A stretch of DNA of 55,567 nt, taken from Calidithermus chliarophilus DSM 9957. Its GTDB lineage: Bacteria; Deinococcota; Deinococci; Deinococcales; Thermaceae. The notes beneath the pieces are model-generated. The model saw nothing but the letters and a program-made list of their open reading frames with translations. It searched no databases and was not told the DNA's origin. Shown here piece after piece: positions 30,971 through 33,812 of this stretch; positions within the stretch are counted from its first letter, which is position 1; every line of letters begins with the position of its first letter. The stretch lies in the NCBI RefSeq assembly GCF_000430045.1, contig NZ_KE387027.1, positions 207,432 to 262,998 on the forward strand, written 5' to 3'. Position numbers and translations under genes: made by a program.

Positions 30971-33586
30971 CTATTGCACCACGATGTTGAGCAGCTTCCC
31001 CGGCACGTAGATCTCCTTCACCACCTGCTTCCCGTTGATGTGCACCTGCACGTTGGGGATCTCGCGGGCGATGCGCTTGATCTCGTCCTCGCTGGCCTGC
31101 ACGGGGACGGTGGCCTTGCCGCGCACCTTGCCCGAGACCTGCACCACCAGCTCGAAGGCGTCGGCGACCAGGGCGTCTTCGTCCACGGCGGGCCAGCGGG
31201 CCCCGAAGACGGAGGAGTCGTGGAACTGGTGCCACAGCTCCTCGGCGATGTGGGGGGCGAAGGGGGCGAGCATCTGCACGTAGCTGAGCGTGGCGAGGCG
31301 GAACACCGGGGTGACCGGGTTCTCCTTGCGGTAGTCGTACATCGCGTTGAGCAGCTCCATCAGCGCGGCCACGGCGGTGTTGAAGCGCAGGGCCTCGATG
31401 TCCTCGCCCACCTTCTTGATGGTCTGGTGCAGCTTCTGGTAGAGCGCCTTGTCGGGGCCGCCGAGGGCCTTGGGCTCGTGGACGTCGCCCTGGGCCTCGA
31501 GCTCGGGCAGGTTCTCGGCCACCAGGCGCCAGACCCGGTTGAGGTAGCGCCAGGCGCCCTGCACGCCCTCCTCGGTCCAGATCATCTCGTTCTCGGGTGG
31601 CGCGGCGAAGAGGATGGTGATGCGGGCGATGTCGGCGCCCTGCTCGCGCACGAAGGGCCCCACCATCACGCCGTTGCCCAGGCTCTTCGACATGGTGGCG
31701 GGCTTCCAGAAGTGGGTGCTGCCGTCGTCGTGAGTGCGCAGCTCGGCCCCGCTCTTGCGGGCTTCTTCCACGGTGAGGGTTTCGGGGATGTCCAGCTTGA
31801 CCCGGCGCTCGGAGGTCAGGAAGCGGATCTCGTCGCCGCTCACCTCCACCGGCCCCACGTCGGTCCAGCCCTGCACCATTCCCTGGGTGAAGAGGCCCTC
31901 GAAGGGCTCTTCGGCTTCCACCATGCCCAGGTCGTGCAGGAACTTGGTGAAGAAGCGGGCGTAGAGCAGGTGCAAAATGGCGTGCTCGATGCCGCCGATG
32001 TACTGGTCTACGGGCATCCAGAAATTGGCCTTCTCGGGGTCGAAGGGCACCTCCTCGTTGCCCGCGTCGGCGTAGCGCAGGAAGTACCAGGACGAGTCGA
32101 TGAAGGTGTCCATGGTGTCGGTGTCGCGCCGCGCCTTGCCGCCGCACTTGGGGCAATCGACCTCGTAGAACTCGGGGTGAGCGGCCAGGGGGCTCTTGCC
32201 CTTGGGCCGGATGTCCTCCACGTCCTTCAAGGTGGGGAGCACCACCGGCAACTGCTCGTAGGGCACCGGCACGATGCCGCAGCTATCGCAGTGGATCATG
32301 GGGATGGGCGTGCCCCAGTAGCGCTGGCGGCTGATGAGCCAGTCGCGCAGGCGGTAGTTGACCTTGCCCTCGCCGATGCCCTGCTCCTCCATCCAGGCGA
32401 TGATCTTCTTCTTGGCGTCCTCGACGTGGAGGCCGTCCAGGAAGCCGGAGTTGATGGCCGGGCCGTCCTCGGTGTAGGCCTTGCCCTGCCAGTCGGCGGG
32501 GGGCTGCACGGTGCGGACGATCTCGAGCCCGAACCGCTCGGCGAACTCCCAGTCGCGCTCGTCCTGGCCCGGCACCGCCATGATCGCGCCGGTGCCGTAG
32601 CCCGAGAGCACGTAGTCGGCGATCCAGACCGGAATTTCCTTGCCGTTGGCCGGGTTGATGGCGTAGGCCCCGGTCCAGACCCCGGTCTTCTCGCGGTCCT
32701 CGCGCTGCCGCTCGACCTCGCTCTTCATGCGGGTGGCCGCGACGTAGGCCTCCACGGCCTCCTTCTGCTCGGGAGTGGTGATCCGGGCGACGAGCTCGTG
32801 CTCGGGGGCCAGCACCATGAAGGTGGCGCCGAAGATGGTGTCGGGGCGGGTGGAGAAGACCCGGATCTTCGCGTCGTGGCCCTTCACCTGGAAGTCGAAC
32901 TCGGCCCCGGTGCTCCTGCCGATCCAGGCCCGCTGCATGGCCTTGACCTTCTCGGGCCAGCGCGGGAGCTTGTCGAGGTCGTTCAGCAGGCGCTCGGCGT
33001 AGTCGGTGATCTTGAGGTACCACTGCTCGAGCTCGCGCTTCTCGACCAGAGCCCCCGAGCGCCAGCCGCGCCCGTCGATGACCTGCTCGTTGGCCAGCAC
33101 GCTCTGCTCGACCGGGTCCCAGTTGACGTAGCTCTTCTTGCGGTAGGCCAGCCCCTTCTCGTACATCTTGAGGAAGATCCACTGGTTCCACTTGTAGTAC
33201 TCGGGGGTGCAGGTGGTGACCTCGCGGCTCCAGTCGTACTGGATGCCCATCAGCGCCAGCGACTCCTTCGACTGCTTGATGTTGCCGAAGGTCCAGTCGG
33301 CGGGACTCACGCCGAACTTCAAGGCCGCGTTCTCGGCGGGCAGGCCGAAGGCGTCCCAGCCGAAGGGGTGCAAGACCGAGTAGCCCTGCTGGGTGCGCCA
33401 TCGGGCCAGCACGTCGCCCATGGTGTAGTTCTTGAGGTGGCCCATGTGCAGGTCGCCCGAGGGGTAGGGGAACATCACCAGGACGTAGCTCTTGTTGGCC
33501 CCGCCCTCCTGCGCCTTGAGCAGGCCGGTCTGCTGCCAGTACTTCTGCCACTTGGGCTCGAGCTCGTGGGGGTTGTATCTGTCCAT
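30971..33586 (-). CDS. leuS: Leucyl-tRNA synthetase
   Basis: An 871-aa class I synthetase. The HIGH-type motif reads HMGHLKNYT, followed by [17 protein letters not shown] large editing domain, a zinc-like CPKCGG pair and MSKSLGNGV (KMSKS) are present. Full bacterial length. The second ATG (MDRYNPHE) was chosen because AAAAGG lies 6 nt upstream; the first ATG sits directly on that site. A 170-nt leader with an attenuator precedes it. Confidence 0.97.
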
Positions 33587-33620
33587 GCTCATCCTTTTCG
33601 TTCCTCTCTTTAGCAGGGGT

Positions 33621-33706: not shown

Positions 33707-33734
33707 AAAAATCCCCCTTCACGCCGAAGGGGGA
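33707..33734 (-). terminator. leuS attenuator terminator
   Basis: On the minus strand an 8-bp stem (33727-33734 with 33712-33719, 7-nt loop) runs straight into five T residues (33711-33707). It lies about 20 nt beyond the leader peptide stop and over 120 nt before leuS. Its 5' arm also belongs to the alternative pairing described for the antiterminator. Confidence 0.85.
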
Positions 33735-33768
33735 GGCCGGACACCTGGCTTCTTAGCAGGGGCCTCCC
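33731..33768 (-). promoter_or_regulatory. leuS antiterminator pairing
   Basis: GGGAGGCC (33768-33761, inside the leader peptide after the CTA codons) is an exact complement of GGCCTCCC (33738-33731), which overlaps the 5' arm of the terminator. Formation of this 8-bp stem would prevent the terminator. Confidence 0.7.
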
Positions 33769-33800
33769 GGTAGTTCTAGTAGCCGTCCGGCGAACTTCAT
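33753..33800 (-). CDS. leuS leader peptide (leucine attenuator)
   Basis: A 15-codon frame encoding MKFAGRLLELPGGPC. All three Leu codons are CTA, which is rare in this GC-rich genome, and they lie together in codons 7, 8 and 10. TATCAT ends 6 nt before the ATG, so the peptide would be made from a leaderless transcript. A stem-loop terminator follows, then leuS. This is the classic layout for ribosome-mediated attenuation: stalling at CTA when charged leucyl-tRNA is short would leave GGGAGGCC free to form the antiterminator. Confidence 0.75.
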   Translation of the reverse strand: MKFAGRLLELPGGPC

Positions 33801-33806
33801 GGGGCC

Positions 33807-33812
33807 ATGATA
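33807..33812 (-). promoter_or_regulatory. -10 box of leuS leader transcript
   Basis: TATCAT (TANNNT) ends 6 nt before the leader-peptide ATG. No strong -35 was seen. Confidence 0.6.

Follow-up and report, generated by a model that had tools for sequence, protein, structure and literature searches.

How the leucyl-tRNA synthetase gene leuS is controlled in Calidithermus chliarophilus DSM 9957 is a question raised by the short region upstream of the gene, on the minus strand of the 55,567-nt stretch of DNA that was analysed (the window). The initial annotation described this region as a leucine attenuator read from a leaderless mRNA, with TATCAT, six nucleotides, a 15-codon frame holding three CTA leucine codons, and a terminator stem running into five T residues before leuS. 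All of these elements were recovered (Table 1), as was the proposed complementarity between GGGAGGCC and GGCCTCCC, the latter sharing bases with the 5′ arm of the terminator. Based on the anatomy of the leader, its conservation, the compensatory replacement of the antiterminator arms and the predicted folding, we favor, with a probability of roughly 0.9, a ribosome-mediated transcription attenuator in which a leaderless transcript encodes the leader peptide.

Table 1. Elements of the leuS leader in the window, in the direction of leuS transcription
Feature	Positions	Strand	Basis or remark
-10 box TATCAT	33812-33807	minus	Sequence; TGT directly before it gives an extended -10
Spacer GGCCCC, 6 nt, from -10 box to ATG	33806-33801	minus	Sequence
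Leader peptide frame MKFAGRLLELPGGPC*, 15 codons and stop	33800-33753	minus	Sequence and homologous frames
Arm 1 GCCGGAC (partner GTCCGGC, 33742-33736)	33791-33785	minus	MFE fold of the ribosome-free leader
Predicted regulatory codons CTA CTA, codons 7 and 8	33782-33777	minus	Sequence and folding
Third CTA, codon 10	33773-33771	minus	Sequence
Arm 2, antiterminator 5′ arm GGGAGGCC	33768-33761	minus	Complementarity; aligns with conserved Meiothermus GGGGAGGCC
Arm 3, antiterminator 3′ arm GGCCTCCC	33738-33731	minus	Complementary to GGGAGGCC; overlaps the terminator 5′ arm
Terminator hairpin TCCCCCTTC-GGCGT-GAAGGGGGA, 23 nt	33734-33712	minus	-16.3 kcal/mol
U5 tract (TTTTT)	33711-33707	minus	Directly after the terminator hairpin
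leuS, leucyl-tRNA synthetase, putative regulated gene	30971..33592	minus	TIGR00396, 1078 bits (cut-off 548)

The leader frame reads ATG AAG TTC GCC GGA CGG CTA CTA GAA CTA CCG GGA GGC CCC TGC TAA, and CTA is the only leucine codon that it uses (3/3). A short frame with codons cognate to the synthetase thus lies upstream of leuS, and an intrinsic terminator, also recovered by a separate terminator scan (2 matches, 0.4 expected), stands between the frame and the gene, with about 115 nt from the U tract to the leuS start (33592). The minus strand between terminator and gene (33706-33615) holds a long GC-rich hairpin (ACCCCGAGCCGGAC...GTCCGGTTCGGGG), a segment that appears far less structured in the sister genome.

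A chance origin of the window leader is excluded. Under a strict rule that requires TANNNT-N6-RTG, a CTA-containing frame of 5-16 codons and, no more than 60 nt away, a U4 tract, the leuS leader is the sole matching site on both strands of the 55.6 kb, and the same rule recovers 50 of 56 real leaders compared with 2 of 5600 dinucleotide shuffles. CTA is a rare codon in the 35 gene-like frames of the window, where it accounts for 20 of 1627 leucine codons (1.2%; 0.14% of all codons) and only TTA is rarer. In the distinct leader frames it accounts for 58 of 77, a raw count for which the shuffle figure is the fair measure, since the 56 leaders were gathered with a relaxed version of the strict rule.

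The initial annotation called for a comparison of the frame, CTA codons, stems and -10 spacing among Thermaceae, and took a lack of conservation of frame or CTA as an argument against attenuation. Both are conserved in nearly all Thermaceae. We searched 50 genomes of the family for leuS and found it in all but one (G045, weak paralogue matches only); the upstream region was readable in 49, and the element is present in 47 of these and absent from G006 and G021. Most members sampled from related families of the order have it too, the sample being the Thermaceae and those families, with Deinococcaceae proper probably outside it. The set of 56 leaders combines 46 Thermaceae genomes with 10 leaders from related families; G017, the 47th member of the Thermaceae, was identified by eye and stands outside the set. 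There are 44 distinct frames of 7-16 codons, and the starts are 53 ATG and 3 GTG. The common layout is TANNNT, almost always 6 nt, the start codon, a frame with CTA, a stop codon and a terminator, with hairpin and U tract lying between frame and leuS in nearly all leaders; in G017 and G023 the U tract is weak.

Leader peptides include MQWFIHLELP in Meiothermus, MRFVKRLALT in G007, and MSPARLIP, MRPARLAP and the seven-codon, GTG-initiated VRASLRP in Thermus. Thermus leaders have 7-8 codons and one CTA, at codon 5 or 6; in a MAFFT alignment of 25 distinct Thermus-type leaders this CTA is invariant, and the adjacent codons vary. The related families contribute MIWAGLART, MIRSGLLSLGALLG, MIASALENRGDRD, MPVATNLLQLGGPRR and MFIKELLLGENRE, all of them encoded with CTA; TANNNT mostly lies 6-7 nt ahead of the start codon in these leaders, in many cases together with a properly spaced TTGAC -35. 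Several of the sampled genomes in these families have no recognizable leader or terminator, and in some genera of one family the element is lost or its terminator unclear. According to the MAFFT alignment, the window and its sister genome lack four bases (TTAG) that in Meiothermus hold the stop codon before the antiterminator arm, so that their frame extends across GGGAGGCC and ends a few codons beyond. The peptides end in Pro-stop in 37 of the 56 leaders, as L-x-P-stop in Thermus, the window peptide not being among them; a terminal proline could delay termination and keep the ribosome on the antiterminator arm, or could be a mere by-product of RNA pairing. In three Meiothermus genomes (G023, G006 and G017; L026-L028), a tRNA-Leu-like sequence with a TAA anticodon is located directly upstream of leuS or the attenuator.

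Judged from the spacing of the -10 box, transcription probably starts at the leader ATG. TANNNT is found exactly 6 nt before the start codon in 50 of the 56 leaders, and in Meiothermus, Calidithermus and g4 the box is preceded by TG. In Deinococcus radiodurans, TANNNT located 6-7 bp before open reading frames was shown experimentally to be the -10 element of leaderless transcripts, and the motif is common in the phylum (PMC12340547). A conserved TANAAT, noted by eye, is present about 35-40 nt before leuS, after the terminator, in Meiothermus and the g4 genomes G004 and G007 (for example L013, L015 and L019), and is still kept in G006 and G021, where the attenuator is lost; none is evident between terminator and leuS in the window. 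This box is probably a second promoter, from which part of leuS transcription may bypass the attenuator in Meiothermus, G004 and G007.

The minimum free energy fold of the ribosome-free window leader contains both the arm 1 helix and the terminator, and the former occupies the 5′ part of arm 3. An analogous helix is found in Thermus (GGCCAGG/CCTGGCC). The initial annotation, which described a compact two-stem switch, was right about the compactness but missed this third helix. To represent translation, a ribosome was modeled as covering 9 nt past the A-site codon, and folding was restricted to the RNA between the ribosome edge and the last base preceding the 3′ arm of the terminator. A ribosome placed with the first CTA in its A site leaves a downstream fold of -10 to -25 kcal/mol in which the 5′ arm of the terminator is sequestered (mean 0.74), as compared with 0 to about -10 kcal/mol and a mean pairing of 0.39 when the stop codon is in the A site. 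The shift is in the expected direction in 47 of 56 leaders at 37 °C and in 54 of 56 at 60 °C. For the window, the antiterminator values are -22.3 and -3.3 kcal/mol, respectively, in agreement with the earlier proposal that stalling on CTA frees the arm and that a ribosome at the stop covers it, the latter even though the frame runs through the arm. A stall at CTA codon 7 or 8 would expose arm 2 largely or entirely, and one at the codon 10 CTA would cover the arm in part, with -8.7 instead of -22.3 kcal/mol. The model thus predicts an antiterminator mutually exclusive with the terminator, freed at a CTA stall and hidden at the stop.

The antiterminator arms are wholly replaced in sequence between lineages, with complementarity kept: GGGAGGCC/GGCCTCCC in the window, GGGAAGGGG/CCCCTTCCC in Thermus, ATTACTCG/CGAGTAAT in G028 and GGAGATCGC/GCGATCTCC in G029. 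On the sequence level, these rewritten yet complementary arms are the strongest sign of selection on antiterminator pairing. Arm pairing was judged by folds made per lineage, as MAFFT alignments misalign the pairs through register shifts of the C-rich arm. Compared with spacer shuffles, the antiterminator has a median z of -1.6, reaching -5 outside Thermaceae; in several Meiothermus it is no better than the shuffles (z near 0), the G-richness of the segment alone being sufficient there. The equilibrium fold of the complete leader with its terminator gives no clean switch by itself, the terminators being loosely defined in that calculation and including some antiterminator bases.

The mechanism that we propose is as follows. 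RNA polymerase would start six bases past the -10 box, at the A of the leader ATG or a neighboring base, and a 70S ribosome would load onto the emerging 5′ end and translate the frame. Poor charging of the CTA-reading tRNA-Leu would make the ribosome stall at the rare CTA codons and cover arm 1, leaving arm 2 free to pair with arm 3 as the antiterminator, with read-through into leuS as the result. When CTA is decoded normally, the ribosome would reach the stop codon and hide arm 2, the terminator would form, and leuS would be off. If no ribosome loads, both helices, that of arm 1 and that of the terminator, are expected to form, which corresponds to a basal off state. The switch may thus respond to leucine or to the charging of tRNA-Leu.

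Other readings of the locus can be weighed against these observations. The same attenuator might have an ordinary 5′ leader, with transcription starting further upstream and the ATG reached in some other way. This would fit with the failure to find a -35 consensus at the -10 box of the window, where the start is placed by spacing, and with the ilvB leaders described below, in which 10 nt instead of 6 follow the -10 box, so that strict leaderlessness is not required for such switches. However, the constancy of the 6-nt spacing noted above, the lack of room for a Shine-Dalgarno sequence between -10 box and ATG, the extended -10 in the close relatives of the window, the correctly spaced TTGAC -35 in the related families, and the published leaderless transcripts that use this motif at this spacing (PMC12340547) make it unlikely. 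An arrest peptide that responds to a signal different from tRNA charging, for instance through slow Pro-stop termination or a ligand, is suggested by the frequency of Pro-stop endings and by the ARL-x-P common to most Thermus peptides. We find this quite improbable, since the peptide sequences are otherwise unconserved between lineages (MQGGFWLAPT, MIASALENRGDRD, MFIKELLLGENRE) and share the CTA codon, the ARL of Thermus is accounted for by its arm 1 helix GGCCAGG, and the window peptide has no terminal proline.

The hairpin is strong enough (-16.3 kcal/mol) that it could serve as a plain intrinsic terminator for a small RNA or a transcript arriving from upstream, next to a short frame that arose by chance and without any regulation. 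The order-wide conservation of frame, codon and spacing, together with the shuffle result (2/5600), speaks strongly against such a coincidence, and the upstream gene-like frame of the window is divergent, which leaves no upstream transcript in need of termination here; we therefore regard this explanation as very improbable. Least probable of all is a T-box or another leader that binds tRNA or a metabolite. The same genome does have T-boxes upstream of valS, ileS and glyS, but RF00230 has no match at the leuS leader even at E<=10. No convincing match to any other Rfam family was obtained in the leader. The remark in the initial annotation that synthetase genes of Gram-positive bacteria usually rely on T-boxes holds for this genome, with leuS as the exception among these four genes.

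Besides the leuS attenuator, the same genomes contain related leaders. The ilvB leader in the genome of the window encodes the near-leaderless MPASLALTLVVVGLVIIGPTGDRV, rich in CTA, GTA and ATT, and has a terminator and an antiterminator (L158). The ilvB leaders as a group (L153-L159) have TTGACA and a -10 box in most cases and a terminator downstream, and probably constitute a Leu/Val/Ile attenuator of the ilv-leu operon. The trpE leaders (L181-L187), such as MVRALTVKGWWWPR and, in Thermus, MALPSALWWPG, contain two or three consecutive Trp codons, start 6-9 nt after the -10 box, and each have a terminator and an antiterminator; they are probable trp attenuators. In front of pheS, three genomes (L230-L232) show short frames ending in TGG TTT TTT NNN TAG (MAGGWFFS, MSGRWFFG and MWAWGWFFR), followed by GC-rich hairpins, a possible Phe attenuator. 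No comparable leader was found upstream of leuA or trpS. The T-boxes mentioned above are those of L219, L220 and L221 (valS, glyS and ileS; contig C3 of the genome of the window), the gene names being a reading of the protein sequences rather than the result of a family search.

Taken together, these leaders make it reasonably likely that Thermaceae and related families possess a set of leaderless or near-leaderless attenuators (leuS, ilvB, trpE and perhaps pheS), in which 70S ribosomes would load on the bare 5′ end and a single rare codon would be reached before the polymerase has made about 70 nt. If this is true, leuS-type leaders would be among the smallest codon sensors known, and 70S loading and the arm 1 helix would take the place of the Shine-Dalgarno site. 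The attenuator probably explains the control of leuS in an order that includes Thermus, the source of standard structural models of both the ribosome and RNA polymerase. Within a single genome, valS, ileS and glyS would then rely on T-boxes and leuS on codon-reading attenuation. In its 75-nt Thermus form, the leader offers a minimal system, tractable in vitro, for the open mechanistic question of how leaderless 70S initiation is synchronized with RNA polymerase.

The enterobacterial trp, his, leu and pheST attenuators reside on leadered mRNAs with Shine-Dalgarno sites and have longer leader transcripts, in which they differ from the leuS leader. What both have in common, for leuS by prediction, is that a stalling ribosome decides which of the protector, antiterminator and terminator helices forms. 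In Sinorhizobium meliloti, the 14-residue trpL leader of trpE(G) begins with the very first base of its mRNA and acts through ribosome-mediated transcription attenuation (PMC7298713). A leader at the transcript 5′ end and this type of attenuation are also what we propose for leuS, but the S. meliloti system relies on Trp codons, controls a biosynthetic gene and belongs to another phylum. Leaderless short open reading frames with polycysteine in mycobacteria (Canestrari et al. 2020) are cited as a case of translation attenuation in PMC13236596 and were foreshadowed in PMC4633059. As described in these citing sources, they resemble the proposed leuS leader in that regulatory codons in a leaderless short frame control a downstream operon, and differ in using Cys codons and attenuation of translation.

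The closest known counterpart is found in Streptomyces. Attenuators of leuS, with an antiterminator, were predicted in S. coelicolor and S. avermitilis in 2005 (PMC1262725), and LeuL2 of S. lividans TK24 (MRAVRLLLSEPR), located upstream of leuS, is leaderless according to RNA-seq and is followed by a hairpin and a U tract (PMC8079986). The gene, the short Leu-containing leader peptide and the terminator are shared, and the leaderless start seen there by RNA-seq is also probable here; the comparison is one of descriptions, not of sequences. The leaders described here occur in a different phylum, have CTA throughout as the presumed sensor codon, and are as short as 7-8 codons with one Leu codon. 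In the literature searched, which was not complete and may have missed an earlier mention, no leuS attenuator was described for Thermaceae or Deinococcota. The initial annotation considered the attenuator unusual, which holds for its compactness and conservation but not for the principle, because a leaderless leader before leuS is known from S. lividans. The kind of switch is thus already known, even for leuS, and what appears newer is its order-wide conservation, the 7-8-codon Thermus leaders with one CTA, and the sister leaders of ilvB and trpE.
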